Below are positions 8,294 to 31,970 of a stretch of DNA of 32,279 nucleotides, in pieces (position 1 is the stretch's first letter; every line of letters starts with the position of its first letter). The translations under genes and the position numbers were made by a program. The notes under the pieces are model-generated. The model was given only the letters and a program-made list of their open reading frames with translations, was not told where the DNA came from and ran no database searches. Source of the DNA: Candidatus Omnitrophota bacterium (GTDB lineage Bacteria; Omnitrophota; Gorgyraeia; Gygaellales; Profunditerraquicolaceae); NCBI GenBank assembly GCA_016208765.1, contig JACQXK010000008.1:1-32279 (forward strand), in the 5' to 3' direction.

Positions 8294-8388
8294 ATAAGGG
8301 TAGAAGAGATTGTTAAGGGTTGAAGAAATAACATCATAACCCTACAACTTACAACATTTTAATTAAACAATAAAGGAGAATGAAAAGA

Positions 8389-10045: not shown

Positions 10046-11997
10046 TGTTGAATTGGAAATACGATAAAACCTTCAAATTTTACCTTACTGATGAAATTTC
10101 AGGAAGGCTGATCCCTGTTTCAGAATGGCAGGAAACAGGAACAAGCTTCATTGCTCATATTTCTGTATTGCAAGAATTAGCAGATAATGGCTTTGCAGAC
10201 TTCACTGATGATAGCTGTATTGTAGAGCCTGAAAATATTTATCGATTTACCGAGACTGATTTTCAGATTTTAGAGTTGCCACAATTTTACCCCTATGAAA
10301 TTTATATTCAATCAAATGGACAACTGAATCAAAGCAATTTTAATTTCAGATATGGATTTTATGACTTTGCACCAAATGGAACAAGATTGAATGCTAAACG
10401 AAACGGTCTATTAATAGATATAGACCAAAGACAATATCTGTTATCGTTAAATCAGTATAAAATTTGTGAGGCATTGGATGATTTTAACTCACTTTCGGAA
10501 GAAGAGCGAACATTCAAAAACAACCTTCTTCGTTTTGCTGAGATAAAAGGTCTTTCAGATTCGAACGCATCTATCCTTGATAGGTATTTACAGAATGAAA
10601 ATGTTTGCCATCCTGAGAAAATAATTGTTGATATAGAATTTAACGATGGTGTATTGGAAGTAATTCCACGAGTAGGAAATAATGTATTTAATGAACTAAT
10701 TCAAGAGAATGAATTTAAGCCAATTGAAGAATTTCCAAAAGCATTCGACATGTACCGTAATGTTCAGGATGTTTATCCAACATCCAACCTTAATGGACAA
10801 AGAACACGAGTTGTTTTTGATGATAAACAGAAGGAACAAATTAAGATAATCAAAGACAAGCTTCGGAGAACAAGTGATCCTGAAAAAGTAAAACAAATAA
10901 GTGAAGATCCATTTCGATTTCTTGGTCTTGATAATGAGATAATTGACACTTCTGCTTTTTACAGCGAAAGAGTAGTTGAAATTGGTTTATATAAGCCCAG
11001 ATTTTATCCATTTATATGTCCCTATAAATCGGAATGGATTCCTGGAATAGGTATTGAAGATAGAATTTGTGGCAAAAAGAATATTTTCATTAAAACAAAG
11101 ATTGAGCTTGAAGAATTTAAGCAAGAAAAAGAAAAGGCAGTAAAATCAGGGGAAAATAGCTTTGATTGGAAGAATACCTCAATTCCTATTGAAAAAGCGG
11201 AAGAATTTATAAAAATTGCAGAACGACAATTAGCAAACTCAAAAGAGCCAGTTAAGGGAACAATCGCTTTAATCATAAAAGAAAATGTAGAAGGGTCTGA
11301 ATACAGCGAAATTGGTGATGAATTAGACATAGAAATTGAACAAACATTTTTCAAGGTTCAAAATCTTACCCCTGTTGTTTCATTAAAAGAACACCAACAA
11401 GAAGGAATTGCCTGGCTGCAAAATCTATTTAGTAAAAATCTTCGTGGTTGCTTGCTGGCTGATGATATGGGATTAGGCAAAACGCTACAGCTTCTGTACT
11501 TTATTGAATGGCACTCACAAAATTATGACAACAATAAGCCATATTTGGTTGTAGCCCCTGTTTCAATTTTAGAAAATTGGGAAAAAGAGTATTCTCATTT
11601 CTTTATTCCGCAATCCCTACCTTTAACAAAATTATATGGTAATACAGGACTTACTAAGGACTACAATAAAAAATCAGTTCAGGCATTACAAACAAAACAA
11701 CTGATCTTAACCAATTATGAAACGATTAGAGCCTTCCAATTAAATCTCTGTAAAGTAGATTATGCTGTAGCTGTATTAGATGAAGCACAAAAATTTAAAA
11801 CTCCGGGGACACTCATTACGAATGTTTCCAAAGCATTAAAAGCAGATTTTAAGATTGCAATGACTGGAACACCGGTTGAAAATACCTTGGTTGACTTGTG
11901 GTGTATTATGGACTTTGCTAAACCAGGGCTTTTAGGCAATGCCAAGGATTTTGCAAAAGAATTTCAACACCCCTTAAAAAAGAAGAAACAGATATGA
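10045..11997 (+). pseudogene. zorD: ZorD-like SNF2 helicase, N-terminal part (lobe 1)
   Basis: This part has 650 residues from ATG 10045, which overlaps the zorC stop (TGATG, translational coupling); an upstream in-frame ATG at 9988 lies inside zorC and is rejected. It contains the SNF2 lobe 1: LLADDMGLGKT with Lys479, PVSILENWEKEY, DEAQ at 579-582 in VLDEAQKFKTPGT, and MTGTPVEN. It stops at 11997 after KKKKQI, in the linker before lobe 2. In the -1 frame the protein continues without a gap (HPLKK then EETDMKEFGEKLRN). ZorD is the helicase-nuclease of type I Zorya. One missing A in a run of A's explains the break. Confidence 0.82.
11976..11982 (+). other. A-AAA-AAG slippery heptamer at the zorD frame junction
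   Basis: Lobe 1 codons read TTA AAA AAG, placing the heptamer in -1 slippage phase. A -1 shift gives GAA GAA ACA GAT ATG and continues the helicase in frame. An ATGA overlap (11994-11997) also allows reinitiation. No stimulator structure is evident. Loss of one A from an ancestral run of seven is the simpler explanation. Confidence 0.35.
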
Positions 11998-13307
11998 AAG
12001 AATTTGGTGAAAAACTTCGTAACAAAATTGGAATTTTTATTAAACGAAGATTAAAACAAGATGTAGCGAAAGATTTACCTGAGAAATTTGATAATGAGCA
12101 TTCAAAGATAAAAAAGCAAATGCCGATTGTACAACTTGAACGATATAAGGTTGAGATAGAACAAGCAAAAAATTCTGATTTGTCAGTACCAGATAGACGA
12201 AATCAAATATTAAAATCATTATGGGCTATACGAGATATATCTGACCATCCATATTTAGTAGATAATAATATCAATAATTATTCAGGAAAAGAGCTTGTTG
12301 AAACCTCTGCCAAATTGCAAATTTTAATCGATATCCTCTCGGACATCAAGGAAAAAAACGAAAAAGCTATCATATTTGCTGATAGAAAAGAAACTCAAAA
12401 AATGCTTCAGCATGTAATTTTTGAATATTTTCATGTATCATCCAGAATTATTAATGGAGATACCCCTGCTATAAAGCAAGATGAAAGCAAATCTAAACTA
12501 AGCAGACAACAATCTATTAATGAATTTCAAGACAAGAAAGGATTCAATGTCATTGTAATGTCTCAACTTGCAGCAGGTGTTGGCTTAAATGTAACAGGTG
12601 CAAACCATGTCATACATTACAGTCGACATTGGAATCCTGCCAAGGAAGAACAAGCGACAGCCAGGGCTCATCGAATCGGTCAAATCAAGGATGTTTATGT
12701 TTATTATCCTATGGCAATATCTGATGAATTTACTTCTTTTGACATTGTTTTAGATGAATTACTTGCCAGAAAAAAATTATTGGCAACAGCTACATTATTT
12801 CCTACTGAACAAATAGAAGTCAAGCCAGAGGAAATTTTCGAGGATATTTTTGGAATAGATGCCTCTGTTACTGCAACACCTTATACCTTTGATCAAATTT
12901 CCAAATTGACACCTATTCTTTTTGAAGCCTTTACTGCTGCACTTTATGGCAAATTAGGTTACACTATTCACTTAACACCGCTATCAAATGATAAGGGTGC
13001 AGATGTTTTGGCACTTGGTGATAATGAAAATTTCCTGATTCAATCAAAACAAAGCAATTCACTAATAGGCTTACAAGCAGTTCAAGAAATTTTAGGGGCT
13101 AAAGGATACTACGAAACAAAATTCCAGAAAAAGTTTCAATTAATTGTATTTACTAACAGTGTTCTTAATGGCAATGCAAAAGAATACGCAGATAGTAATA
13201 GTGTTGGTTGGCTTGATAGAGATAAAATTGCCGAATACTTGAATCAATATCAAATAACCATTAAGGATCTTCGTAATTGTGAAAAACAAAGGATGGAGAG
13301 GGTGTAA
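11994..13307 (+). pseudogene. zorD: ZorD-like helicase lobe 2 plus Mrr-like nuclease domain
   Basis: This 437-residue frame continues the helicase. It has IGIFIKRRLKQDVAKDLPEK, motif V in VIVMSQLAAGVGLNVTGANH, and motif VI in EEQATARAHRIGQ. The last 130 residues form a restriction-endonuclease-like Mrr domain, with D337 in DKGADVLAL and Q350-S-K352 in FLIQSKQS, the D...QxK set of that family. SNF2 helicase followed by Mrr-type nuclease is the layout of type I ZorD. It overlaps the upstream part by 4 bp (ATGA). It is catalytic only if joined to lobe 1; alone it lacks the Walker motifs. The end abuts a palindromic repeat. Confidence 0.8.
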
Positions 13308-18091: not shown

Positions 18092-19075
18092 ATGTTAAAA
18101 TTTCTACAAGCGTACATCAAATCAATGCGGCTTTATTATTCATTTATCACTGGTATAGCTGGTTGGATTGGGGTTGCATATTATGAATTTATAGCTCATT
18201 CCTTAACAGAAAAAACTATCGAAATTATCCCGGCTTGCGAAAAGAAATTTGTTATCTTAATCATATTATTTTTGAGCTGGGGGATAAATCAGATTATTAA
18301 TGATTATCTTGGTCTTAAGGAAGATAAAATTAATGCCCCACAAAGACCAATGGTTACCGGAGAACTTAATCCAAACAAAGCTCTTATTTTATCTATAATT
18401 TTAATCATTATTTCATCCTGCATAACCTGGTTTTACCTTGAGCCTGTCGCCATAGTCTTTCTAATCGCAGGAGTTGTGTTAAATATCGTCTATGAGTATG
18501 CTAAAGGATATGGTTTGCTTGGCAATATTGTCTTTGGGCTGATGATAACCATGGCTACCCTATATGGTGCTTATGCCTCAGGTCCGACACAAGCCTCTTT
18601 CTTAGCCTCTCATCGGCTTTCAGGTCTTATACTTGTTTGGGTGATTAATGCTCTGATGACATTCTACACCTATTTTAAGGATTATAAAGGGGATAAGCTT
18701 GCCGGCAAAAATACGGTGATAGTACAGTATGGTCTAAGAATATCAAAGATTTTAGCTGTTTTATCTGCCTTTCTGCCAACAATAGTGTTTTTCATCCTGA
18801 AAGGAACAAATATGCTCTGGATTGAGATTAACAATACCTTTATTATCCTCGGCATTTTAACCGTGTTTTTACAGATATGGACTGGTGTGCTTTATTATCT
18901 TAACCCTATTGGCAGTAAAACATATACCTCTTTGCGGACTAATTTCCAGGCATGTGCCTGTGGTGAGGCAACAATAATTGCCTTTTTCAATCCTGACATA
19001 GCTATGTGGCTCTTCATAATGTCCTATATTTTTGTTGGTTTTCTGTTTGAGCTGCATACGAATCAAAAATCATGA
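18092..19075 (+). CDS. UbiA-family membrane prenyltransferase
   Basis: The 327-residue protein has about eight membrane helices and both Asp-rich motifs of the UbiA superfamily: NQIINDYLGLKEDKINAPQR (first, about residues 70-90) and YFKDYKGDKLAGKNT (second). These bind Mg-prenyl diphosphate and transfer the prenyl group to an acceptor in the membrane. ATG 18092 with AGGTG just upstream is preferred; an in-frame ATG at 18065 lacks a ribosome binding site. The gene ends in an ATGA overlap with the flavoenzyme gene and opens the lipid-type cluster. The acceptor is unknown; the absence of other quinone genes and the ACP/kinase neighbours favour a lipid-like or specialised product. Confidence 0.88.
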   Translation: MLKFLQAYIKSMRLYYSFITGIAGWIGVAYYEFIAHSLTEKTIEIIPACEKKFVILIILFLSWGINQIINDYLGLKEDKINAPQRPMVTGELNPNKALILSIILIIISSCITWFYLEPVAIVFLIAGVVLNIVYEYAKGYGLLGNIVFGLMITMATLYGAYASGPTQASFLASHRLSGLILVWVINALMTFYTYFKDYKGDKLAGKNTVIVQYGLRISKILAVLSAFLPTIVFFILKGTNMLWIEINNTFIILGILTVFLQIWTGVLYYLNPIGSKTYTSLRTNFQACACGEATIIAFFNPDIAMWLFIMSYIFVGFLFELHTNQKS

Positions 19076-20280
19076 ATATATTTGAACCGGCTGAAATAGG
19101 TAATTTAATTGTAAAAAACAGGATTATTCGTTCTGCTACTTATGAAGGGCGATGTGATGAGCAAGGATTCCCAACAGATAAGTATAAGGAATTATACCTT
19201 GAGCTGGCTAAAAATAGCATAGGACTTATTATTACCGGATTTGCTTATATAAGTAAAGATGGTCGGGCAATGCAGCCATATCAGGCAGGGATTGACAGCG
19301 AAGAAAAAATCCATTTTTATAAACAAATCACGGATGAGATACATCAATATGATTGTAAAATAGTTATGCAAATAGCTCATGTGGGCCGCCAGACATTAAA
19401 GCAGGTAACCGGCCAACAAGTTAGAGGTGTGTCTAAGAAAAAATCGCTTTATTTTAACGAGATTCCTGACATATTAAAAACTGAAGAGGTTGTAGCCATA
19501 ATTGAAAGGTTTGCCGCAGCTGCCTTGTTGGCAAAAAGAGCAGGTTTTGATGGGATACAACTACATGCTGCCCATGGTTATCTTATCCATCAATTTATTA
19601 GTTCATCAATTAACAATAGAAAGGATATCTTTAAGATAGACCCCAAGACAAGAATCGGGGTTAATTTTTTAGATATGATTATCGAGCAGGTAAGACAAAG
19701 GTGTGGGACAGATTTTCCTATCCTTGTTAAGATAAGTGCCAACGATGACCATGGATTTACCCAAACCCAGTTTGTTAATCTTATTCGTTTTCTGGACAGG
19801 AAAAAGGTTGATGGAATAGAAATCAGTTATGGCACAATGGATTACGGATTAAATATATTTAGAGGCAACAGTATCCCTATTGATGTACTGCTAAGACATA
19901 ACCCAAGATATAGAACAGATAATAAAATGGGTAAATATCTTTGGAAAAGGTTTCTTTTGCCGATAATGAAATTAAAAATTAAGCCATTTACAGCTATGTA
20001 TAATCTTCCTTATGCAAAAATCGCTAAAGAAAATACGGATATTCCTATTATTTGTGTAGGTGGGTTTAGAAAGGGAGAAGAGATGTTTGATGTAATTAAC
20101 AATGGGGCTGTGGATTTTGTCAGCTTGTGCAGACCCTTTATTTGTGAACCTGACTTAGTTAAAAAATTGGAACTAAATAATAACTATGTCTCAATGTGTA
20201 TCAGCTGTAATATCTGTGCTATAATGTGTGATACGAAAAATCCTACTAAATGCTACTTAAAACAAGGGGTTGCAACATGA
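19072..20280 (+). CDS. Old-yellow-enzyme-type NADH:flavin oxidoreductase with C-terminal cysteine cluster
   Basis: The 402-residue TIM-barrel flavoenzyme opens NIFEPAEIGNLIVKNRIIRS and has GFDGIQLHAAHGYLIHQF, with catalytic His/His, and the FMN-phosphate loop ICVGGFRKGEEM...VDFVSLCRPFICEPDL. The end has CISCNICAIMC and a further Cys, similar to the 4Fe-4S ligand set of the 2,4-dienoyl-CoA reductase group, but the large C-terminal NAD/FAD domain of that group is absent. It probably reduces an activated C=C bond. It overlaps both neighbours by 4 bp, implying co-translation with the UbiA protein and the ACP. Substrate unknown. Confidence 0.87.
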   Translation: MNIFEPAEIGNLIVKNRIIRSATYEGRCDEQGFPTDKYKELYLELAKNSIGLIITGFAYISKDGRAMQPYQAGIDSEEKIHFYKQITDEIHQYDCKIVMQIAHVGRQTLKQVTGQQVRGVSKKKSLYFNEIPDILKTEEVVAIIERFAAAALLAKRAGFDGIQLHAAHGYLIHQFISSSINNRKDIFKIDPKTRIGVNFLDMIIEQVRQRCGTDFPILVKISANDDHGFTQTQFVNLIRFLDRKKVDGIEISYGTMDYGLNIFRGNSIPIDVLLRHNPRYRTDNKMGKYLWKRFLLPIMKLKIKPFTAMYNLPYAKIAKENTDIPIICVGGFRKGEEMFDVINNGAVDFVSLCRPFICEPDLVKKLELNNNYVSMCISCNICAIMCDTKNPTKCYLKQGVAT

Positions 20281-20525
20281 ATCTTGAGGAAAGAGTGCTG
20301 GCAATAGTTAAAGAAAATCTGGAGGTAGAGGCAGAGGTATCCCTTGAAACTGATCTTAGAAAAGACCTGGAGATTGATTCTCTTGGGTTAATACTGATTA
20401 CTACTGGAATTGAAGACGAATTTTCAATTACTATAAAAAACACAGAACTTAGTGATATAAATACTGTTGCGGATATAGTAAAAAAAATAATTACTATTCA
20501 GCAGGAGATAAATATATGCCACTAA
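20277..20525 (+). CDS. Acyl carrier protein
   Basis: The protein has 82 residues from ATG 20277, which overlaps the previous stop (ATGA). It has the ACP helix pattern and the phosphopantetheine attachment Ser35 in DLRKDLEIDSLGLILI. It most likely presents an acyl chain to the alpha-oxoamine synthase that follows, as dedicated ACPs do beside bacterial serine palmitoyltransferases. The last two residues and stop (C-H-stop) come from the repeat that begins at 20518, so the natural C-terminus may have been altered. Confidence 0.93.
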   Translation: MNLEERVLAIVKENLEVEAEVSLETDLRKDLEIDSLGLILITTGIEDEFSITIKNTELSDINTVADIVKKIITIQQEINICH

Positions 20526-20598
20526 AACACCGAAGCACCAAATTTCACCAATTATAAAATAATTTAGTGGGATTTTGTGTGTTTAGTGTTTTGGTGGC
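20518..20598. repeat. CCACTAAAACAC palindromic element overlapping the ACP stop
   Basis: The left arm GCCACTAAAACACCGAAGCA opposes the right arm GTTTAGTGTTTTGGTGGC (20581-20598) as imperfect inverse. The left arm encodes the ACP stop codon. It separates the ACP from the synthase gene. Confidence 0.75.
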
Positions 20599-20644
20599 TA
20601 TAATAAAGAGCTTGCTGAGTAGTAAAAAAATTAAAGGAAAAACT

Positions 20645-21802
20645 ATGAGTTTTTATAACCAATTACACATAGATAAAGGTGCAATAGAACGGTTTAATCC
20701 TTACTACTGTAATCTGGAATCATCTTTAACCGACCCGATTATAATCAATGGACAGGAATTTATAAATCTTGCCTCCAATAATTACCTTGGGCTTGCCTCA
20801 GATGAGCGGGTGAAGGAGGCTATGATTAATGCCATTAAAAGATATGGAGCCTCAATGTGCGGCACTCCAATTGCAACCGGCTATGTTGATATACTTAAAA
20901 AGGTTGAAGAAAGGTTATCAAAATTCATAGGGCTTGAAGATACAGCTATCTTTCCCTCATGTTATCAGGCAAATCTGGGATTATTTTCTTCAATAGTCAA
21001 TGATAAGGATCTAATCATTGTTGATCACTATGCCCATGCCTCTCTTATTCAGGGAATCAGACTAACAGGATGTAAGGTAAAACCATTTTTGCATAATGAT
21101 ACAGCACACCTTGAAAAGGTGTTACAGAAATCTTCTGATTATCAAAATATATTTGTTGTTACAGAATCAGTCTTTTCTACTGAGGGCAGCCTGGCACCCT
21201 TTGAGAAAATAGTCAATTTATGTGAGAATTACCATGCTATTGCCGTGGTTGATGATTCTCACGGGATAGGTGTTATTGGTAAAAGCGGAAGAGGGATTTT
21301 AGAAGAAAAGGGCATCGTGGATTTTCAGGGGATTTACACTGCCTCTCTGGGTAAGGCATTAGCCAATTCAGGCGGTATTATAAGCGGCAAAAAAGAACTG
21401 ATAGAATTCCTGAGATATTCCTGTTCTTCATTGATTTATTCTACTGCACTTCCCCCTGCGGTCATTGGAGGGATTGATAAGGTACTTGATATAATAGAAG
21501 AAGATTTTGAATCCATCGCCGCAAGGATGTGGAGATATAAGAGATTGATTTCCGAATGTTTACAGGGATGTGGATTAAAATTAGCCGAAGGCACAGCCCC
21601 TATAACCTCTATCATTGGCGGTAGTTTGGAAAATACCATTGCCATAGCCGAAATATTATTTGAAAATCACATACTTCCTACACCGTTTGTGCCTCCATCT
21701 GTGCCACCTAATCAAGGAAAGGTAAGGCTCATAGCAGGTGCTGATTTGAAAGAGACGACTATGGAAAAGGTTCTTGGGATATTTAAGGAGGTAAGATTTT
21801 AG
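20645..21802 (+). CDS. Alpha-oxoamine synthase (serine palmitoyltransferase/KBL/BioF family)
   Basis: The 385-residue PLP enzyme condenses an amino acid with an acyl thioester to a 2-amino ketone. Signatures are FINLASNNYLGLA, HYAHASLIQGIRLTG, VTESVFSTEGSLAP, VVDDSHGIGVIG, and the PLP lysine K237 in TASLGKALANSGG. ATG 20645 with AAAGGA is preferred; in-frame codons back to 20567 lie in the repeat. The family includes BioF, KBL, HemA and SPT, which cannot be told apart by eye. With an ACP immediately upstream and an epimerase and lipid kinase downstream, SPT-like use of acyl-ACP is the best inference. No other biotin or threonine-degradation genes are present. Confidence 0.9.
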   Translation: MSFYNQLHIDKGAIERFNPYYCNLESSLTDPIIINGQEFINLASNNYLGLASDERVKEAMINAIKRYGASMCGTPIATGYVDILKKVEERLSKFIGLEDTAIFPSCYQANLGLFSSIVNDKDLIIVDHYAHASLIQGIRLTGCKVKPFLHNDTAHLEKVLQKSSDYQNIFVVTESVFSTEGSLAPFEKIVNLCENYHAIAVVDDSHGIGVIGKSGRGILEEKGIVDFQGIYTASLGKALANSGGIISGKKELIEFLRYSCSSLIYSTALPPAVIGGIDKVLDIIEEDFESIAARMWRYKRLISECLQGCGLKLAEGTAPITSIIGGSLENTIAIAEILFENHILPTPFVPPSVPPNQGKVRLIAGADLKETTMEKVLGIFKEVRF

Positions 21803-21890
21803 GTAGTCTGGTGTCTGGTAGCCTGGGTGTCTAAGTGCCTGTGATCAGAATCAGGCTACCAGAGGACCAGGCACCAGACTACCAGACACC
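21802..21890. repeat. GGTAGTCTGGTGTCTGG palindromic element
   Basis: The left arm GGTAGTCTGGTGTCTGGTAG (21802-21821) and the right arm CAGGCTACCAGAGGACCAGG ... CAGACTACCAGACACC are imperfect inverses. It starts in the synthase stop codon. A second member lies at 24052-24140. Confidence 0.8.
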
Positions 21891-21922
21891 AAATACCTAA
21901 TCGCTTCCATAAGGAGTTACTC

Positions 21923-22840
21923 ATGAAATACTATCTCATATTAAATCCCGGCTCTTGTGGTGGAAAAAACAGGAAAATATTTAAGCGAATATTTTCTTTG
22001 TTAAATCTGGCAAAGGTTGATTATGCTTATGAAATTACCCAGGGGATGGATGATGCATTAAGATTATCCCTAAAAGCCAATAAATTAGATTATGATGTGA
22101 TTGTAGCCGTTGGTGGTGATGGGACGATTAACAGGGTTGTTAACGGTTTTTATGATACCCAGGGGAAACGGATTTCTAAGGCAAAAATGGGGGTTATTTA
22201 CACAGGCACAAGCCCTGATTTCTGCAAAAGCTATAATATCCCTTATAAAAATGTCGATGAAGCAATAAGGGTTTTGTTGGAGAATAATAGCCGTCCGATT
22301 CAAATTGCTAAAATAACATTTGCTGATGATTCTCATGTCTGCTATTTTAGCTGTTGTACGAATATAGGATTAGGGGCAACCCTGGCCAGATATGCTAATA
22401 GCGGCATCAGAAAAATAGCCGGTGATTTTTTGGGAACCCTTGTCTCACTGATAAGAATCCTTATCCTTTATCACCCCAAAGAGTTGTTGATCCGGTGCGA
22501 TGGCTTTGAGCAGAGATTAGACAGGGTCTTTAACCTCTCCATTGGAAAAACATTTTATATCGCCTCTGGGATTAAGGTAAAAAATGACTTAAAAGAGGGT
22601 GATGGAAGATTTTATCTTTTGACGGTTAAACACCTTGATACTAAACATCTTCCGTATTGCCTGAAGACAATTTATAGTGGAAGGGAAATTCCCAGTAATG
22701 AGATGATATCATTAGGGTATGGTAAAATTATTGAGATACATGGAGATAGTGAGGTAGAGTTTGATGGTGACCCGCAGGGTTATCTGCCATGCCGGATTGA
22801 AATGGCAGAAGAGTCATTGGAGATAATAACAAAATGGTAA
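21923..22840 (+). CDS. Diacylglycerol-kinase-family lipid kinase
   Basis: The 305-residue protein has the DAGK/sphingosine-kinase/YegS fold: nucleotide loop VAVGGDGTINRVVNG (GGDGT at 64-68), YYLILNPGSCGGKNRK at the N-terminus, TGTSPDFCKSYNI, and the C-terminal VEFDGDPQGYLPC. It phosphorylates a lipid hydroxyl at the membrane. TAAGGAG lies upstream of the start. In Caulobacter-type sphingolipid loci a kinase of this family acts on ceramide; beside an alpha-oxoamine synthase and ACP a sphingoid or ceramide-like substrate is plausible, not shown. Confidence 0.9.
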   Translation: MKYYLILNPGSCGGKNRKIFKRIFSLLNLAKVDYAYEITQGMDDALRLSLKANKLDYDVIVAVGGDGTINRVVNGFYDTQGKRISKAKMGVIYTGTSPDFCKSYNIPYKNVDEAIRVLLENNSRPIQIAKITFADDSHVCYFSCCTNIGLGATLARYANSGIRKIAGDFLGTLVSLIRILILYHPKELLIRCDGFEQRLDRVFNLSIGKTFYIASGIKVKNDLKEGDGRFYLLTVKHLDTKHLPYCLKTIYSGREIPSNEMISLGYGKIIEIHGDSEVEFDGDPQGYLPCRIEMAEESLEIITKW

Positions 22841-22858
22841 CTACTCAGGAAGGGGAAT

Positions 22859-22893
22859 TTACCGCAGAGACGCAGAGAAACAGAGAGATTAAC
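22859..22893. repeat. CCGCAGAG-family single arm
   Basis: TTTACCGCAGAGACGCAGAG and AAACAGAGAG form one arm of the family, just after the lipid kinase gene. The rest of the 22841-23058 gap has no recognisable gene; AAAGGAG near 23034 is some distance before the next start. Confidence 0.7.
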
Positions 22894-23058
22894 AGTTTCG
22901 GAATAAGCAAAATTGAGAACACAAAATCTGTAGTATGTTTCTGTACTCTGTAATCTGATTATTCTCTGCTACATGATAATGTAATGCAGCAATTGAAAGA
23001 GGCACTTGCTACTGGCATGTGCCGTGTGTAATAAAGGAGAAAAGGGGAAGATGGGGAA

Positions 23059-24072
23059 ATGGAGAAAAAAAGAGATAACGAACAAAGGCTAATCAATCTT
23101 ATTACCAATATACTTGGGGAAAGTGATTGCCGAGTAAATAAATGCTTTGAATCTGATGCTGAGATAGTAAAATTTGGAGATAGTTATCTTTTATTTACCA
23201 TGGATGAATTTTCATCCGAGGATATGCTTTTGTGTGATAATCCCTATACCTTTGGCTGGAATATGGCTATTGGGGGGATAAGTGATATTCTTGCCTGTGG
23301 CGGCATACCTTTATTCTACGCCCATGCCATTACTGTTGATAAAAACTGGGATGAGCAGTTTATAAAAGGATTATTCCAGGGGGTTCTATCTGTCCTGAAA
23401 AAATCAAATACTGCTTTCATTGGTGGTGATGTCGGAGAAGGAAACGAATGGAGATATACGGTCTCAATCATTGGAAAACTTGACGGAAAACCAATTATGC
23501 GAAAAGGTGGGGATGCTTTCGATATTATTTATATTTCAGGAGAGATTGGTAGTGGAAATCTTCAGGCAGCATTAAAATTATATCCAAACGAACACAGTAA
23601 CATAATCCCTGCATTTAACCTTCGCCTCAAAGAATCTGTTTTGATTAGAGAATATGCCACTTCTTGCATTGACACAAGTGATGGTGTATTCAATGCCTTA
23701 AATACCATCTCCCAAATAAACAACACAGGCTATATCGTGGAAAATCTTCCATATATAAAAGATGGTTTAGCCTTAACTAAAAGATTATCTTTGCCTAAGA
23801 CCCTTTTGTTTTTAGCTGAAGCCGGTGAATATGAGCTCCTTTTTACGATAAAACAAGACGATGAACAAGAATTTTTACAAAAAGCAACGGCAAATGGATT
23901 TTTATTTTATAGACTTGGGCAAATAATCTCTTCTCCAGCAAGGATACTTTTTGAAGATGGACAGAAGATTGATTTAGAAGGGTTAAATATAAGTGCAAGG
24001 GATTATAATACTACGGAGGAATATTTGAGTAAGATTATGGATAAGCTTTCAGGTGGTCTGGTAGTCTGGTAG
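23059..24072 (+). CDS. AIR synthase-related (PurM/ThiL-like) protein
   Basis: The 337-residue protein has the PurM-like ATP-binding fold in two halves. LFTMDEFSSEDM and WNMAIGGISDILACGGIPL match the substrate/Mg-binding first half of ThiL/HypE/SelD relatives. FIGGDVGEGNEWRYTVSIIG and CIDTSDGVFNAL (compare ISDGL of ThiL) follow. Genuine thiamine-monophosphate kinase is possible, but there are no thiamine genes here, and the location between a lipid kinase and an epimerase suggests phosphorylation of, or phosphate-dependent chemistry on, a pathway intermediate. The last six residues, GGLVVW, and the stop are encoded by a repeat starting at 24052. Confidence 0.8.
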   Translation: MEKKRDNEQRLINLITNILGESDCRVNKCFESDAEIVKFGDSYLLFTMDEFSSEDMLLCDNPYTFGWNMAIGGISDILACGGIPLFYAHAITVDKNWDEQFIKGLFQGVLSVLKKSNTAFIGGDVGEGNEWRYTVSIIGKLDGKPIMRKGGDAFDIIYISGEIGSGNLQAALKLYPNEHSNIIPAFNLRLKESVLIREYATSCIDTSDGVFNALNTISQINNTGYIVENLPYIKDGLALTKRLSLPKTLLFLAEAGEYELLFTIKQDDEQEFLQKATANGFLFYRLGQIISSPARILFEDGQKIDLEGLNISARDYNTTEEYLSKIMDKLSGGLVVW

Positions 24073-24140
24073 TCAGGTGGTCTGGTAGTCTAGGTGTCTA
24101 AATGCCTATGCTCAAAACCAGGCTACCAGACACCAGACAC
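24052..24140. repeat. GGTAGTCTGG palindromic element, second copy, overlapping the ThiL-like gene end
   Basis: Shares GGTAGTCTGGTAGTC, TAGGTGTCTAA and the right arm CAGGCTACCAGACACCAGAC with 21802-21890. It begins inside the preceding gene and supplies its stop codon. Confidence 0.8.
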
Positions 24141-24182
24141 AAAATACTCGACCCCTTACAATTATGGAGATATTAACCAACA

Positions 24183-25214
24183 ATGGATAAGGTAATAATA
24201 ACAGGTGCAAATGGATTTATAGGCAGCCATATTACCCGGGAATTCTGTAAAAATGGGATAAAGCCCGGATGCCTCATCAGAAAAGAAAGGAAGCTGACAA
24301 ACATTAAAGATTTGAATGTAGAGATAAGGTATGGCGATATACGGGATGAGGTGAGCTTAAAAAACGCCTTTGAAGGATTTGATTTTGTTATCCACAACGC
24401 AGGTTATGTGAAAGACTGGGGTAAATATGAGCTATTTCACAAAACAAATGTTGAGGGAACACTTAATGTCCTGAAGGCATGCGTAGCAAATGAGATAAAG
24501 GATATTATCATGACCGGGTCTATCTCGGTTTATGGTGAGGAGAATTCTTTTGAGATTAAAGATGAAGAATCACCTTACCATTCACATTATCACTATTTTC
24601 TTGATAAAATCTTTCCCTGTGCACTCAACAGCTATAGGGATACGAAGTGCTTAGCAACAAAAGAGGCTATTTCCTACGCACAGGAAAAGGGATTAAATTT
24701 AACCATACTTGAACCTGTCTGGGTCTATGGGGAAAGGGAATTTAATACAGGTTTTTATGAATATATCAAATCTGTTAAGGAAGGAATGATTCTTGCCCCA
24801 GGGTCGAAAAAGAATAAATTTCATGTAATTTATGCCGGTGATTTGGCCAGGGCATATTTTTCAGCCTATCAGAAAAGGTTAAAAGGGATAAATAGAATTA
24901 TTATCGGCAATAAAGAGCCTGAGTTGATGGCTGATACTTACCAATTATTTTGCCAATTTGCAAATATTAAACCCCCAAAATTATTACCTGCATGGCTGGT
25001 ATATCCAATTGGTTTTATCATGGAATTGGTCGCTACCATCTTACAAACAAAAGAACCACCCCTACTCACAAGAGGCAGGGTGAGTATGTTTTATGATAAT
25101 ATTGAATATTCAACTAAAAAGGCAGAAGATGTCCTTGGATTTACGAACGAATATACATTAGAGGAGGGCATCAAAAAAACCGTTCAATGGTATAAGGAAA
25201 ATAATTTTATTTAG
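24183..25214 (+). CDS. NAD-dependent epimerase/dehydratase (extended SDR)
   Basis: The 343-residue protein has the Rossmann motif TGANGFIGSH at residues 7-16, D-x-x-D in YGDIRDEVSL, HNAGYVKDWG, GSISVYGE with the catalytic Ser, and YRDTK as the Tyr-x-x-x-Lys pair. The C-terminal part (PPLLTRGRVSMFYDN) resembles 3-beta-hydroxysteroid dehydrogenase/isomerase-like SDRs. In bacterial ceramide synthesis an enzyme of this class (CerR) reduces the 3-keto group, which fits a gene close to an alpha-oxoamine synthase. A sugar epimerase role cannot be excluded. Confidence 0.87.
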   Translation: MDKVIITGANGFIGSHITREFCKNGIKPGCLIRKERKLTNIKDLNVEIRYGDIRDEVSLKNAFEGFDFVIHNAGYVKDWGKYELFHKTNVEGTLNVLKACVANEIKDIIMTGSISVYGEENSFEIKDEESPYHSHYHYFLDKIFPCALNSYRDTKCLATKEAISYAQEKGLNLTILEPVWVYGEREFNTGFYEYIKSVKEGMILAPGSKKNKFHVIYAGDLARAYFSAYQKRLKGINRIIIGNKEPELMADTYQLFCQFANIKPPKLLPAWLVYPIGFIMELVATILQTKEPPLLTRGRVSMFYDNIEYSTKKAEDVLGFTNEYTLEEGIKKTVQWYKENNFI

Positions 25215-25224
25215 AGCGGTAGCC

Positions 25225-25296
25225 GTTTAGCGTGTCCGTTTAACGTGTCCGTAGGAAGAATATGGAAAATGAACACGGAAAACGGACACGCTAAAC
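25225..25296. repeat. Inverted repeat with perfect 17-bp arms
   Basis: GTTTAGCGTGTCCGTTT (25225-25241) is the exact reverse complement of 25280-25296, with a further TTAACGTGTCCGT half-copy in the loop. It fills the gap before the radical SAM gene, whose AGGAGGT begins just after it. Confidence 0.9.
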
Positions 25297-25315
25297 AAAC
25301 ACCAGGAGGTAAAAT

Positions 25316-26632
25316 ATGATTAAGGTAAGAAACATCAGAGGGTTTGAAAAACAGCTGTTCAATATTATAGTTAGATTGAAGGTATTGTTTTACTTTATCC
25401 CGGAGATTAGAAAAATATCCATCAAAAGATTTTTTGTTTTCCTGCGAAGGCTTTTGTATTTCTTTTCTAAACTTCAGGAAAACAAATTTGTGAAAATAGG
25501 TAAATACACACGAACAGACCTCTATGTCTCTGGATTTCCTTCCACTGCATTTTACACAGCGTGTAAAAAACTTATGACATTTGATGAAAAACTTCCGGCT
25601 ATAACGGTTTTGATTTCTGTAACCTCTGCCTGCCGATTTAATTGTGAATATTGCTATCAGAAAAAAGACATAGGGAAAGATATAGCTATTGAGAAAATAG
25701 TAGATGTAGTTAACAGATTGCAGGATATGGGGATTGCATTTTTTAACATTGAAGGTGGCGAGCCTTTTCTTGCGTTCGATAGATTAAAAAAGGTCTGTGA
25801 GGTTATTGATAAAAGGTCTGAGGTGTGGGTAAATTCGACAGGTGATGGAATGACCATTGAGAGATTAAGAGAACTGAAGGGATTAAATCTCACAGCCATA
25901 ATGTTTTCCATGCACAGTCCATACCCTGAAGAACTTAATAGATTTATGAAATCAGAGAAGGCATGGGAAACAATGGCAAAAGGTATTGAATTGTGTCATC
26001 AGGCGGATATTCCAATTGCTATAAATTCTTGTCTTCCCAAAGAGGCTTTTTATAATGGCGATTTTGAAAGGATAATGGAACAGGCAAAAGAATTCAATGC
26101 CTCTATAATTCAATTAATAAAACCTAAATCTGCCGGTGGCTGGATTGAAAAAGAATTAGAAAAACTTACTCAGCAAGATGTATTGAGGATAAAAGAGGTT
26201 GTGAATAAGTATAATACCCATAGCAAATACAAGGATTATCCCTCAATCTCTGCTCAGATGATAGAGGAAGATAAAGAGAGATTTGGATGTACTGCAGGCG
26301 GCACTGACCGATTTTATATCAACGCTAAGGGAGATGTTCAACCATGTGAATTTCTGAATATATCCTTTGGAAATATTGATGTGGAGGACTTTAATATTAT
26401 TTACAAGAGGATGAGGGAATGTTTCAAAACGCCAGGTGAATGCTGGCTATGTGAAAGATATTCTCAGGATATTTTTAAGATATTTACGGAAAAAGGGTTA
26501 AAAACACTTCCCTTGACTAAAGAACTCTCCAAAGAAATCTATTTGAATTGGGATAGAGGGAAACCAACACAACTTTATGCTGTGATGGAAAAAAGGAAGA
26601 ATAGACTAACCACGAAGACACAAAAACTCTAA
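25316..26632 (+). CDS. Radical SAM enzyme with SPASM-like C-terminal domain
   Basis: The 438-residue protein has the radical SAM [4Fe-4S] motif C106-x3-C110-x2-C113 (CRFNCEYC) in SVTSACRFNCEYCYQ, the GGE motif in FNIEGGEPFL, and a C-terminal region GCTAGGTDRFYINAKGD...CEF...CWLC with extra cysteines typical of SPASM auxiliary-cluster domains. It has about 100 extra N-terminal residues rich in basic and aromatic side chains, possibly membrane-associating. It makes a 5'-deoxyadenosyl radical; the target is unknown. The start has a perfect AGGAGGT. The last seven residues (TTKTQKL) come from a CCACGAAGACAC-type repeat at 26609, so the native end has probably been replaced. Confidence 0.9.
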   Translation: MIKVRNIRGFEKQLFNIIVRLKVLFYFIPEIRKISIKRFFVFLRRLLYFFSKLQENKFVKIGKYTRTDLYVSGFPSTAFYTACKKLMTFDEKLPAITVLISVTSACRFNCEYCYQKKDIGKDIAIEKIVDVVNRLQDMGIAFFNIEGGEPFLAFDRLKKVCEVIDKRSEVWVNSTGDGMTIERLRELKGLNLTAIMFSMHSPYPEELNRFMKSEKAWETMAKGIELCHQADIPIAINSCLPKEAFYNGDFERIMEQAKEFNASIIQLIKPKSAGGWIEKELEKLTQQDVLRIKEVVNKYNTHSKYKDYPSISAQMIEEDKERFGCTAGGTDRFYINAKGDVQPCEFLNISFGNIDVEDFNIIYKRMRECFKTPGECWLCERYSQDIFKIFTEKGLKTLPLTKELSKEIYLNWDRGKPTQLYAVMEKRKNRLTTKTQKL

Positions 26633-27110
26633 GAAACTAAAAATTATAGATAGAGAAAACCGTTCACCGCAGAGACGCAGAGTTTGCCGAGAATTGCAGA
26701 GAAAAAAAGGAGACTATACTCAGCGAGGCCACAAATAGCGATTTTACGCAAAGAGCGATTCAGGCGTCATTGCGAGGAGCTCCTGCGACGAAGCAATCTC
26801 GCTGCGATTAGATTGCTTTGTCGCAGGAGCTCCTCGCAATGACGCTCGCAATGATGGGTTGGTAATTTTCCTCATAGCTTGCTGACCAATTAGACTTTAC
26901 GCGACCTTTCGTAGTTATGTCTTAAAATCGCAGATTATACCCTTGTTGAGTATAATGATGAATATGTTAAAGGACAATAAGTGATTTGTCGCCAAGTTCT
27001 TTGTCCATGAAAAATCCTGCAGCATACTCTGCGTTTTCTCTGCGTCCTTTGCGTCTCTGCGGTGAACAGATAAATTATGGTGGTAAAATCCTTTTCTTAT
27101 TTTCTTTGTC
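26633..27110. repeat. 478-bp non-coding repeat nest between convergent genes
   Basis: CCGCAGAG-family arms at 26663-26682 and 27038-27066 face each other. Inside is a full ATTGCGAGGAGC palindrome (26764-26845) with 26-bp perfect arms. Between about 26880 and 26990 is a stretch of unassigned sequence with only very short open frames that I do not recognise. No gene is called. Confidence 0.75.
26764..26845. repeat. ATTGCGAGGAGC palindrome with 26-bp perfect arms
   Basis: The left arm 26764-26789, starting GCGTCATTGCGAGGAGCTCC, is the exact reverse complement of 26820-26845. The loop contains GAAGCAATC/GATTGCTT, itself inverted. A half-copy lies at 13431-13464. Confidence 0.92.
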
Positions 27111-28676
27111 TTATATTACTTCCTTCACCTTTTTTAACTTTTGCAGAAAACTGTCTTTCTTAAACTTAGTTTTCCATTCACGCATAATCAACCAGCCGCC
27201 AAAACGCATACCACTGTTACGCCATTCCCGATGCCAATCTTCCCAGCTTTTTTTAATATCATGTAAACAAAATATTAATCTTGGAAAGGATAGAATAGTT
27301 ATTCCAATCATAAAGAAATTTCTAAACCGATAAAACTTGCCCATAATCTTTCCTGCAGCCTTTTGCATATCCTCTGGTCCCAGAGGCTCATCAGGCTTAA
27401 ATAAGGGGAAGTTTCCATCATAATATTCCCAGCCAATCTCTTCCAAGGGATAAACCCTTCCCTGTTCCACAAGTCTTTTTCTTAATTCTGTTCCGGGTAA
27501 TGGTCCGGTCAAAAGGACTTGAATGGTATCTATTCTTGTCTTGTTTATAAAGCTCTTAAATTGTTTTATTCTCTCCTTGGCAGACATCTTGAACTCAACA
27601 CCATCTTTCATTGGGTATCCAAAGATAAACATCCCATGAATCAAAAAACCGAACTTATGGAATACTCGGGTCATTGCCACCATATCTTCCGGCTTAATGT
27701 GTTTATTCATAGCTTTTAGTTCTTCTTTAATAGGGGACTCAAACCCAATCGCCACAGTCTTGATCCTTGCCTCTCGCATAGCCTGAAGAAGTTCAGGGTC
27801 TTTAGCTCGATCTAATCGTATCTGGACGGTTAAATTTATCCTTTTCCGTATCTTTTTCAGATAATCCCGTAGCATATTACAACATCTGATGGTTTCAACC
27901 CTATCCTGACCAAAAAGGTCGTCTACTACAAAGAATTCTCGTGCATTCTTGGTTTCTATAAGAAGGCTTATTTGCTCTAATAGCCGTTCTGCAGGAGCAT
28001 ATCGAGGCTTGCCTTTAACCATACAAAACTCACAATTTGACCCACAACCCCGAATTCTGCTTACCGGATAAACATTAATCATAGCATATCTTACCAAAGA
28101 AAAATCAGGAATTGGAAGCTTGTCAAAATCTGTAATTGGCTCTCTGGGAGGGGTCTGAATAACCTTATTATCCCTAAGAAAGGCAATCCCCTTGATTATA
28201 GCTGGATCGGTTTGTTCCTTTAGACAGGTCAACAGCTCTTTTATGATTTCTTCACCCTCATTGATAATCACATAATCTATTGCCCGATTTAATCCATCAA
28301 CAATGTTTTCATCTACAGAAAAGTGGTATCCTCCAACAATCGTGGGGATGCCCCAACCCTTGTAAAGAGCAGCTAATTCATAAAGCCTGGGTACAGTACT
28401 TGTAAGCCCGCCATAAAACCCAACCACATCTGCCGGTCTTAACTGTTGAAGGTATTCATGATCAGGCATTCCAAGGCTATTTTTAGGACCGTATCTACGG
28501 TAATTATTCTCGTCAATAATCTCTACATCCCAGCCTTCCATCTCGGTAACACTGGTAGCTACACATACCGGACCCAATGCCGTAGTGTTTTTTGCTACAT
28601 GAGAATAGATATTAAAGGCTGGATAGGCAGGAATTATCATCCTGAATCTGCATCTTTTTCTGGAAAATATCGGCAT
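27111..28676 (-). CDS. B12-binding-domain radical SAM protein
   Basis: The 521-residue protein begins with a cobalamin-binding Rossmann-like domain (about 10-140; VGFYGGLTSTVPRLYE and TIVGGYHFSVDE), then a radical SAM domain with C211-x3-C215-x2-C218 (CGSNCEFC) in SRIRGCGSNCEFCMVKG. The C-terminal region has one hydrophobic stretch (FFMIGITILSFPRLIF) and a basic tail. This class includes methylases of unactivated carbon and other lipid/antibiotic modifiers such as the hopanoid enzymes HpnP/HpnR/HpnJ. It is convergent with the lipid-type cluster and has its own strong promoter. A link to that pathway is inferred from location only. Confidence 0.9.
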   Translation of the reverse strand: MPIFSRKRCRFRMIIPAYPAFNIYSHVAKNTTALGPVCVATSVTEMEGWDVEIIDENNYRRYGPKNSLGMPDHEYLQQLRPADVVGFYGGLTSTVPRLYELAALYKGWGIPTIVGGYHFSVDENIVDGLNRAIDYVIINEGEEIIKELLTCLKEQTDPAIIKGIAFLRDNKVIQTPPREPITDFDKLPIPDFSLVRYAMINVYPVSRIRGCGSNCEFCMVKGKPRYAPAERLLEQISLLIETKNAREFFVVDDLFGQDRVETIRCCNMLRDYLKKIRKRINLTVQIRLDRAKDPELLQAMREARIKTVAIGFESPIKEELKAMNKHIKPEDMVAMTRVFHKFGFLIHGMFIFGYPMKDGVEFKMSAKERIKQFKSFINKTRIDTIQVLLTGPLPGTELRKRLVEQGRVYPLEEIGWEYYDGNFPLFKPDEPLGPEDMQKAAGKIMGKFYRFRNFFMIGITILSFPRLIFCLHDIKKSWEDWHREWRNSGMRFGGWLIMREWKTKFKKDSFLQKLKKVKEVI

Positions 28677-28798: not shown

Positions 28799-30265
28799 TT
28801 ATTCTTTACTTGTCAATTCACTTGCGATTAACTCTGCCTGCTTCAACACTGTTTCTGTAGCTAATTTCTGCATATCAGGCGGATAACCATACTGACGCAA
28901 GGTTCTTTTTATAATTACCTTCAATTTAGCCTTAACACTCTCTTTTATTGTCCAGTCAATTGTGGCATTTTGCTTAACCCTTTCATAGAGAACAACCGCC
29001 AATTCGCGAAGTTTATCCTTCTGCATGAGTTCCCGAGCACTCTCATTATTAGCCACTGCTGTATAAAAAGCATATTCAAATGTGGACATATTCATCTCTG
29101 CCGGCTCCAAGTCCATCTGCTGAACACTTTTGCCAATATTGATCAGTTCTTCGATGAATTCCGCAGCAGTTATAATCTTGTTGTGATATTTCTTGATAGC
29201 GTTTTCCAGCATTTCCATTAATGTTTTGCTTTGCACCAGATTCGTTTTTGCCCGCGATTTGATTTCATCATTAAGCAATTTCTTCAAAACTTCAAGGGCA
29301 ATGTTTTGATGCTTCATCCCTTTTACCTCTAAAAGGAATTCTTCTGAGAGAATGGAAATATCAGGTTTTTTAATTCCGGCGGCATCAAACACATCAATGA
29401 CTTTATCCGTAACCAAAGCCCTGTCAATCACCTGACGGATGGCGGTTTCCAATTCTTCATCGGTTTTACCCGGGCCGCTGGTTTCAAATTTAACAAGACG
29501 GGCTTTGACTGCCTGAAAAAAGGCAACTTCATCTCTAACATCCATGGCCTGCTCGTGCGGGATAGCGATGGCAAACGCTCTGGAAAGTGCGGTTACTTCG
29601 TCAATGTACCTTTTTCTGCCATTGTCAAGTCCGAGTATATGTTCTTCGGCAGATAAAATCAGGGACAGTTTTTGCGGCGTATCTGCTGTGAAATAATCTT
29701 CATAAGGAAACCCATGATACATAGCTGCAACAATTTCTAATTTTTCAAGCATCAGTTTAACCGCTTTTTCCTGGGGGACAGTGGGATCGCCTTTGCCGCC
29801 GCTTTCGGAATAAAACGAAAGGGCTTTTTTCAAATCAGAGGCAATACCAAGATAGTCAACGATTAAACCGCCCGGTTTATCTTTATAAACACGATTGACC
29901 CGGGCAATAGCCTGCATCAGATTATGTCCCTGCATTGGTTTATCAATGTAAAGCGTATGAAGCGATGGAACATCAAAACCGGTAAGCCACATATCGCGGA
30001 CAATCACTAATTTCATTTCGTCCTGTGTATCTTTTATCCGCTCGGATAAGGCTCTCCGTTGTTGTTTTGTGGTATGATGTTTTGCCATTTTGGGACCATC
30101 AGATGACGCCGCAGTCATCACAACCTTAATTGCACCTTTACTCAAATTATCATCATGCCAATCAGGACGCAGCTTGATAATTTCATCATACAATTCAACA
30201 GCGATCGGTGAGGTCGTCTTTTTTAAGTTCTTCATCCAATTCTTTGACCAAGCGTCTACCTTCAT
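28799..30265 (-). pseudogene. hsdR: Type I restriction enzyme HsdR, C-terminal fragment
   Basis: The open frame reads 488 codons, but genuine HsdR sequence starts only near 30208 ([19 protein letters not shown]). It contains helicase motifs [20 protein letters not shown] and [17 protein letters not shown] of lobe 2 and the C-terminal helical domain. The preceding codons are the wrong frame of the N-terminal fragment. Family members have about 60-70 residues (including the GKGMIVCMSRR stretch) between the two parts, so an out-of-frame deletion at about 30208 removed part of lobe 2. Confidence 0.88.
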
Positions 30266-31970
30266 TGCTCAAATGTATTTTCGCCAATCGGGTTTCATAA
30301 TAAATGCGCACCGTCGCACCATCTTCAACTGCCCGGGCAATATCGTAAATATCAATGTAATTCCCAAAAACAGCGGGTGTGTTCACATCAGTGCCTTCGA
30401 TGGGTGTTCCGGTGAATCCCAGATAAGTAGCATTGGGCAAAGCGTCACGCATGTATTTTGCAAATCCATAAACGGTTTTTTTACCAATAACATTTCCGTT
30501 ATCATCTTTATCATCAAGGGTCTTTGCCTTAAAGCCGTATTGGGTGCGGTGGGCTTCATCGGCAATAACCACGATATTTTTCCTACTGGATAATTCTTCG
30601 TAAATATTGCCTTCTTCGGGTTGAAATTTTTGGATGGTGGTAAAGACAATCCCGCCTGAAGCGACCCTTAAAAGCTTTTTCAAGTGGTCACGATTTTCAG
30701 CCTGAACCGGATCCTGCCGCAAAAGTTGTTTGGAAGCGGCAAAGGTATCAAAAAGCTGGTCGTCCAAATCATTGCGGTCGGTAATCATGACAATGGTCGG
30801 ATTATTCAGTACCAATACAATCTTGCCCGTATAAAATACCATGGAAAGTGATTTGCCGCTGCCCTGCGTATGCCAAACCACACCACCGCGACGGTCGCCC
30901 TTTTCCTGATTTTTAACACTCGGTAGACCATATTCTGCGGGATTCTCTTTCACTTTTAGCGAGTATTCATCAACCATTGCCGCCGCACGAATGGTGGATT
31001 CAACCGCTTTGTTCACTGAATAATATTGATGATACGCCGCTAATTTTTTAACGGTTTCAATCGTGGTGATACCGGTCTGCAAGTCTTCTTTTTTGTTTTT
31101 CTCAAAAACGATAAAATGGCGGATTAAATCCAAAAGGGTCTTTTTGCCCAGCATCCCGGAAATAAGCGTTTCCAATCCAGAAATTCGTAGGGGCAACCCC
31201 CTGTGGTTGCCCGATATGTGTTCGCCCTCATCAGGGCAGGCACAGGGGACTGCCCCTACGGCATTCACCGTTTTCCAGACCATAAAGCGGCTGTATCCTG
31301 AAGAAATGGTGCCGGCTCTCGCTTCCAGTCCATCAGAAATGACCGTGATGCCGTTATAGGCAAACAAGCAGGGAATGGCACTCTTGTAGGTTTGAATCTG
31401 CTTAAAAGCTGATTTTACCGTGGCGTTTTCATCTGCCGGATTTTTAAGCTCAATAACCACCAGCGGCAACCCATTGACAAAAAGAATCACATCCGGTCGT
31501 TTATTGACACCATTTTCTATAACCGCGAACTGGTTGCAAACCAAGAAATCGTTGTTTTCCGGATTTTTGAAGTCAACCAACCAGACCAAATCCCCGCGTT
31601 CTTTACCATCTTTTTGATAGCTGACCTTGACACCTTCGGTAAGCATTCGGTGAAAGGTTTCGTTATTATTGATGAGTTCAGGGGAATTGATGCGTTGAAT
31701 TTGCTTAACGGCATCTTCGATTACAAATGCCGGCAAGGTAGGATTGATGCATCGCACAGCGGTTTGCAGCCGTTCTAACAACAGTACGGCTTCAAAGGAT
31801 GAACGATCCGGCGTGTCGCTGTCTGGAGCAATGCTGGGACCGTAAATGTATTGGTAACCGGAAGATTCCAATAAATCAATGGCAGTTCCGTCATAAACAG
31901 TCTGAGCACATTGAAAACTGCGTAATTTGCGAAACCCGCCATGGGGCGGGATCAGTTTATGTTCGGTCAT
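30195..31970 (-). pseudogene. hsdR: Type I restriction enzyme HsdR, N-terminal fragment, chimeric and repeat-bearing
   Basis: This 591-codon frame holds the nuclease domain (RPDVILFVNGLPLVVIELK, PD...ExK), Walker A in VVWHTQGSGKS, DEAH in VVIADEAHRTQ and LGFTGTPIE, ending out of frame at 30195. In an intact enzyme it would translocate and cut DNA with HsdM/HsdS, neither seen here. Two oddities. The first 28 or so residues (LIPPHGGFRKLRSFQCAQTV) resemble the start of four-helix-bundle-suffix proteins rather than HsdR, whose own sequence seems to begin at DLLESSGYQYIYGP. A 75-bp palindromic repeat (31186-31260) is inserted in frame after MVWKTVN. The start overlaps the RhuM fragment stop by 4 bp. 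Confidence 0.88.
31186..31260. repeat. 75-bp GTAGGGGCA palindromic element inserted in frame in hsdR
   Basis: The ends CGTAGGGGCA and TGCCCCTACG are exact inverses. Internal GGTTGCCCGA and TCAGGGCAGG stems match the element type at 13313-13407. Seventy-five bases is 25 codons, so the frame is kept. It adds roughly the residues GAVPCACPDEGEHISGNHRG between two conserved HsdR segments. Confidence 0.88.

Follow-up and report, generated by a model that had tools for sequence, protein, structure and literature searches.

Gene content of the locus

The analysed stretch, referred to as the window, covers positions 1-32,279 of contig JACQXK010000008.1 from a metagenome-assembled genome (MAG) of Candidatus Omnitrophota (GCA_016208765.1). 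At 18092-26632 its plus strand carries eight intact co-directional genes forming an operon, which recurs as a conserved unit in other genomes and may direct the synthesis of a lipid. Genes and repeats of this region are as follows:

18092-19075 (+): UbiA-family membrane prenyltransferase, kin of archaeal digeranylgeranylglyceryl phosphate (DGGGP) synthase; NDxxGxxED replaces NDxxDxxxD, YxxxK and DxxxD are kept
19072-20280 (+): FMN ene-reductase of the Old Yellow Enzyme (OYE) type; Fe-S motif CxxCNxC...C near the C terminus, H165/H168 conserved as a pair
20277-20525 (+): acyl carrier protein (ACP); ATGA overlap with the OYE gene
20645-21802 (+): pyridoxal phosphate (PLP)-dependent alpha-oxoamine synthase in a clade apart from BioF, KBL, serine palmitoyltransferase (SPT) and HemA; Lys237, Asp203, His206, His131 and Arg361 kept
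21802-21887 (+): short repeat in the synthase-kinase gap, of the same kind as the repeat at 24048-24152
21923-22840 (+): lipid kinase of the diacylglycerol kinase (DAGK)/YegS fold; GTSPDF replaces GTxNDF
23059-24072 (+): protein of the PurM/ThiL superfamily, not housekeeping ThiL; Mg-binding Asp residues kept, final residues encoded by the following repeat
24048-24152 (+): imperfect 8-bp tandem/inverted repeat where relatives have a ketosynthase gene; probable scar of its loss
24183-25214 (+): extended short-chain dehydrogenase/reductase (SDR) of the 3-beta-hydroxysteroid dehydrogenase/DFR/OleD-like ketone reductase class; YxxxK and GxxGxxG kept
25316-26632 (+): SPASM radical S-adenosylmethionine (SAM) enzyme; CxxxCxxC at 106/110/113, C325, C344 and C379, N-terminal helix pair

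The nine genes which an earlier note on this DNA had named together with their Pfam families (the eight above and one convergent neighbour) were all found in place, open and of full length. The ATGA overlaps it described were seen between UbiA and OYE and between OYE and ACP, at the starts 19072 and 20277. Alignment with relatives gave 20645 as the most likely start of the synthase and showed the catalytic residues of the operon enzymes to be intact. Promoter and terminator scans of the locus stayed at or near chance level.

Conservation and distribution

With a UbiA profile built from three genomes, 79 loci were obtained among 84,980 GTDB species genomes, and co-occurrence was counted in the 57 of them that had enough flank. 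Each of six other core families was present in 51-54 of the 57 (OYE 52, synthase 54, kinase 54, ThiL-like 53, SDR 51, radical SAM 52); ACP was present in 39. All 57 loci kept a single strand throughout, and 30 had the exact gene order of the window. Co-occurrence of the core families is far above chance. The proposal that these genes are one selected biosynthetic unit whose families are conserved together was thus borne out, save for the convergent B12 radical SAM gene. The gene content, the intact catalytic residues, the association and the phylogeny are direct observations, and the operon as a unit is well supported.

The gene set of seven to nine enzymes spans ~19 phyla, a count which was taken from record titles; MAG contigs may be misassembled. 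Carriers are mostly anaerobes, and isolates with the operon were found in Desulfosporosinus, Petroclostridium, Alkaliphilus, Herbivorax and Acetivibrio alkalicellulosi. A radical SAM search of 384 Omnitrophota genomes, made independently of UbiA, gave 11 carriers, and several of the top matches lay in the cluster or in its genome. The UbiA of the operon was found in 7 of these 384 genomes, and the only other searched genome of the window's genus had a different version of the operon. The distribution is therefore patchy, which suggests horizontal transfer. Pairwise distances of the six core genes except UbiA correlated among themselves with r 0.67-0.83, those of UbiA with 0.33-0.53; relatedness was not controlled, hence these values are supporting only.

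Two loci had lost parts of the operon. In Peptoclostridium litorale an internal deletion collapsed it, joining the start of OYE to the end of the radical SAM gene (L076, 10988-11365), and in a Bacillota MAG a shortened operon has OYE running into SDR (L072, 10985-12783). These deletions are natural negative controls. In many Clostridia loci (among them L055 9526, L067 9526 and L103 9539-9997), UbiA is immediately preceded by a gene for a conserved helix-turn-helix regulator; some loci of Omnitrophota and Auribacterota have regulators of the MarR type upstream.

Operon versions and the ketosynthase

Three versions of the operon were distinguished. Version 1, the window type, has the order UbiA, OYE, ACP, synthase, DAGK, ThiL-like, ketosynthase, SDR, radical SAM; in some Bacteroidota loci of this version, the block from ThiL-like to radical SAM stands before UbiA, not after the kinase. 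Version 2 (Elusimicrobiota, Verrucomicrobiota, Lentisphaerota, Auribacterota and others) reads UbiA, radical SAM, DAGK, ThiL-like, OYE, synthase and usually SDR. Version 3 (L027 in the window's genus, L028, L114 and L157) consists of a membrane protein, often an ACP-synthase fusion, DAGK, SDR and UbiA, to which L027 adds FabF. In the smallest cores, synthase, kinase, SDR and UbiA remain; radical SAM is then either fused to SDR (L151) or encoded at another site of the genome (L157, with the radical SAM gene in L150). These four genes are therefore the core common to all versions, and radical SAM is closely tied to them.

The large membrane protein opening version 3 loci was seen at L157 4299-5801, L027 1610-3043 and L028 9557-10795. 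In L157 its C-terminal half is UbiA-like, so version 3 loci may have two UbiA-type proteins.

In 39 loci, the genes for the ThiL-like protein and the SDR are separated by one for a FabF-like ketosynthase, whose Cys-His-His residues are kept. The ketosynthase is absent from several loci of the Ignavibacteria/Spirochaetota type, most of which also had no ACP match, and version 2 has neither ketosynthase nor ACP. In the window, where ACP is retained, its place is taken by the ~105 bp imperfect TCTGGTAG repeat, which encodes the final residues of the ThiL-like protein. Within the window genome, repeats of the TCTGGTAG type are confined to two operon gaps, 24048-24152 and 21802-21887, and the former is probably a deletion scar of the ketosynthase. 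Relocation of the operon ketosynthase within this genome was considered and rejected, as just generic FabF-type matches were obtained (best 250 bits).

Phylogeny of the alpha-oxoamine synthase

A quick tree was computed from 60 sequences including E. coli BioF and KBL, SPT of Sphingobacterium, Sphingomonas and Bacteroides, HemA and others; in this tree, long branches lead to E. coli BioF, HemA and Sphingomonas SPT. Synthases of versions 1 and 3 (window type and L027/L028/L114) form one clade apart from all references (SH-aLRT 99). Those of version 2 form their own clade (100), which is sister to SPT (SH-aLRT 94). The window synthase stayed below every curated family cut-off: it scored 184-270 with SPT models (cut-offs 500-670), 310.8 with the BioF model (cut-off 426), and 292 and 253 with glycine C-acetyltransferase models (cut-offs 460 and 493, respectively). 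Judged by tree and scores, it is neither BioF, KBL nor SPT; the clustering with BioF or KBL that the earlier note had named as evidence against its proposal was not seen. The synthase retains the PLP-binding Lys, the Asp/His pair and the Arg for carboxylate binding.

Since otherwise homologous operons use an SPT relative in version 2 and a synthase of another clade in version 1, a long-chain base is the predicted intermediate. These two apparently separate recruitments point to it, and they are our main argument for such a base.

UbiA prenyltransferase

The closest solved relative of the operon UbiA is DGGGP synthase of M. jannaschii (profile, E 5e-22), which was also nearest in a Foldseek search with the predicted structure (pLDDT 91.9). 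All aligned members have NDxxGxxED as first Mg motif and retain YxxxK and DxxxD. With the best archaeal geranylgeranylglyceryl phosphate (GGGP) transferase equivalog model, UbiA scored 72 bits against a cut-off of 296. Despite its fold and nearest solved relative, it was therefore not classed as DGGGP synthase proper, on this score and the lack of NDxxDxxxD. In Alkaliphilus peptidifermentans the operon UbiA is the sole UbiA found, so in this organism it does not serve to make menaquinone. A second strong UbiA match is present in Desulfosporosinus hippei and Petroclostridium.

In another Omnitrophota locus (L154, 6738-14200, and L153), a homologue of the operon radical SAM gene occurs with genes for a geranylgeranyl diphosphate (GGPP)/farnesyl diphosphate (FPP)-synthase-like protein, a UbiE-like methyltransferase, a DGGGP synthase-like UbiA and a TrsS/Tes-like radical SAM protein, possibly an isoprenoid lipid pathway.

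Other enzymes of the operon

The GTSPDF motif of the kinase is kept in all three versions, whereas DAG kinases and the kinase next to SPT in Bacteroides have GTxNDF or GSGNGL; the kinase thus has a signature of its own. Among solved structures, the SDR is closest to a putative oxidoreductase, kavalactone reductase and cinnamoyl-CoA reductase, i.e. to ketone/alcohol reductases, and most sugar epimerases rank below these. The ThiL-like protein was rejected as housekeeping ThiL (124.8, cut-off 184), and two other ThiL genes of the genome exceed the cut-off. OYE has retained its catalytic His residues, and four of its Cys probably form an Fe-S site; the radical SAM enzyme keeps CxxxCxxC and the SPASM cysteines. 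A fold search with the latter returned generic SPASM, MoaA and viperin neighbours only, with no hint of a substrate.

Comparison with known systems

The ceramide locus of Caulobacter comprises aasR, cerR, acpR, spt and cerS plus the ceramide kinase CC_1160 (PMC11324152). Like it, the window operon combines ACP (a dedicated one, 20277-20525), alpha-oxoamine synthase, extended SDR and DAGK-type kinase in a single locus. Unlike it, the operon adds UbiA, OYE, ThiL-like and radical SAM proteins, and its synthase falls outside the SPT clade. The window cluster has no acyl-ACP synthetase AasR and no such family recurs in the loci. An N-acyltransferase CerS is missing from the locus, as had been noted before, and none recurs in the related neighbourhoods that were compared. 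The earlier comparison with Caulobacter-type ceramide synthesis therefore does not hold as a family assignment, and the operon was not filed as a ceramide locus, although it may work on intermediates similar to those of the ceramide pathway.

A bacterial GGGP synthase/DGGGP synthase pair is known from Cloacimonetes (PMC7852524). The operon UbiA resembles DGGGP synthase by profile and fold, and a lipid-phosphate acceptor would be expected for it as well. It differs in having Gly for the second Asp of NDxxDxxxD, in being tied to an alpha-oxoamine synthase and in the absence of a GGGP synthase from the locus; UbiA is the sole enzyme in common with archaeal lipid synthesis (PMC7852524). The ebo cluster likewise has a UbiA protein within a widespread conserved operon. 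Its UbiA-297/EboC is associated with quinoline-type acceptors, and alpha-oxoamine synthase and kinase are unmentioned (PMC9235831). The operon UbiA matches EboC weakly (23 bits, cut-off 250). An earlier description of the gene set was not found in the open-access literature searched.

Proposed product and alternatives

We tentatively favour the reading that the operon makes a two-chain phospholipid in which a long-chain base carries an isoprenoid chain attached by UbiA rather than a fatty acid in amide linkage. The substrates and the order of steps are what we infer from the enzyme families. The synthase would condense acyl-ACP and an amino acid to an alpha-amino ketone, i.e. a 3-keto long-chain base, the SDR would reduce the ketone and the DAGK-type kinase would phosphorylate the alcohol. 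UbiA would then transfer an isoprenoid from a prenyl diphosphate onto a hydroxyl or the amine of the phosphorylated base, as DGGGP synthase does on GGGP, and this prenylation would stand in for the N-acylation which makes ceramides. Radical SAM enzyme, Fe-S ene-reductase and ThiL-like enzyme would tailor the product.

This reading is supported by the one-strand association over the ~19 phyla and by the smallest cores, which consist of synthase, kinase, SDR and UbiA. Further support comes from the kinship of UbiA with DGGGP synthase, whose acceptor is the hydroxyl of a lipid phosphate, from the kinase motif, which differs from DAG kinases over three versions, and from the absence of a recurring N-acyltransferase family. 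The SPT-sister synthase of version 2 in the same gene set, the UbiA of A. peptidifermentans, which is not for menaquinone, and the radical SAM homologue of L154 next to a DGGGP synthase-like UbiA, a GGPP/FPP-synthase-like gene and a Tes-like radical SAM protein argue in the same direction. Several points weigh against it. Domain kinship leaves amino acid, prenyl donor and acceptor unfixed, and OYE, ThiL-like and radical SAM enzymes are without a firm role in the scheme. The donor of UbiA may be unusual, given Gly for one Asp of its first Mg motif. The window operon has no ketosynthase, which 39 relatives carry. Finally, the loci were sampled through UbiA, hence versions free of UbiA are under-counted. 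The 'modified or prenylated long-chain-base lipid' of the earlier note stays the best reading and has gained from the SPT-sister synthase of version 2 and the kinship of UbiA with DGGGP synthase; its product is still inferred.

Alternatively, the DAGK-type and ThiL-like kinases could make a lipid alcohol diphosphate serving as UbiA donor to another acceptor, by analogy with phytol kinase, phytyl-phosphate kinase and UbiA-type transferases. UbiA requires a diphosphate donor and ThiL turns a monophosphate into a diphosphate; the ThiL-like protein keeps the Mg-binding residues and accompanies DAGK in nearly all version 1 and 2 loci, usually as its neighbour. The model is attractive for these versions, but it fails for those without ThiL-like protein (the smallest, L151, L157, L027 and L028, have DAGK and UbiA), and a saturated long-chain alcohol diphosphate would be a poor UbiA donor. 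Overall we judge it unlikely. Somewhat more unlikely is a prenylated heterocycle or quinone-like redox carrier, for which ketosynthase, ACP and synthase would give a beta-keto aminoketone and from it a pyrrole-type ring to be prenylated by UbiA. Rings are the usual UbiA acceptors, OYE and radical SAM would fit redox chemistry, and the carriers are mostly anaerobes. PigH-type enzymes of prodigiosin synthesis also join ACP to an alpha-oxoamine synthase, with ketosynthase chemistry, and the ACP-synthase fusion of L027 resembles their domain order; the operon, unlike them, is without pyrrole-forming partners and has a lipid kinase and UbiA. A lipid kinase has no clear role with a ring product, and the second UbiA of D. 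hippei and Petroclostridium also speaks against one. Several version 1 loci and version 2 are without ketosynthase and ACP, and the version 2 synthase is sister to SPT; a prenylated ring is possible for loci with ketosynthase, less so for version 2.

We give still less credence to a modified form of known ceramide/phosphosphingolipid synthesis, whose N-acyltransferase would be encoded at another site of the genome and whose additional enzymes would carry out tailoring. It would explain the four families shared with Caulobacter (PMC11324152) and the version 2 synthase, and cerS is not always adjacent to spt (PMC11334938). Against it, the window synthase lies outside SPT and far below the SPT cut-offs, and neither acyl-ACP synthetase nor N-acyltransferase recurs in the loci. 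The FemAB-like family PF04339, which may be that of bacterial CerS, was absent from 10 of 11 carrier genomes examined for it, although two matches lie elsewhere in the window's genome. A cofactor or secondary-metabolite pathway without long-chain bases appears quite improbable: the synthase superfamily also yields short aminoketones (CqsA, BioF, HemA) and peptides are frequent SPASM radical SAM substrates, but the dedicated ketosynthase and ACP, the lipid kinase and UbiA jointly point to a lipid.

Under the prenylated long-chain-base reading, the product might be a membrane lipid of a class new for bacteria, with one sphingolipid-like and one archaeal-like half, present in anaerobes of many phyla and missed as standard lipid searches target ceramides or archaeols; we hold this wider claim with more reserve. 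Such a lipid would mix the two chemistries dividing bacterial and eukaryotic from archaeal membranes, and the operon could serve as a genetic marker for lipids from anoxic water and sediment that are as yet unassigned. SPT-like synthases without CerS nearby have been reported from Cloacimonadota (PMC11334938), and such alpha-oxoamine synthases may serve a different lipid. In any case the operon is a conserved, patchily distributed pathway without known product, and it is directly testable as cultured strains carry it.

Neighbouring genes

The B12-binding radical SAM gene at 27111-28676 (-), with weak similarity to HpnJ/BchE/MJ_0865, had been counted as a member of the unit. It was rejected as part of the operon: a single weak match was obtained in 85 related loci, with no counterpart beside them. 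Membership in a hopanoid or ladderane-type pathway was also rejected, as every model score was far below cut-off (SDR with HpnA, 144.6 vs 367.7; B12 radical SAM with HpnJ, 92.7 vs 577.6).

Several Omnitrophota loci have a small hydrophobic protein of ~130 aa after radical SAM or UbiA, which is absent from the window. The copy in L151 had no NCBIfam match. Copies are located as follows:

L151: 10512-10910
L149: 8249-8626
L150: 9832-10209
L152: 2395-2793
L038: 12546-12929

Accessory genes around the operon are decayed, as described before, with Zorya and type I restriction genes split or truncated. At 8380-13307, an N-terminal fragment of ZorA is continuous with part of ZorC, no ZorB was seen and ZorD is broken into two frames. 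At 28799-31970 (-), HsdR of a type I restriction system is split into two overlapping frames. An intact PD-(D/E)xK-type nuclease of PADLOC family PDC-S02 (7073-8089) adjoins the Zorya remnants.

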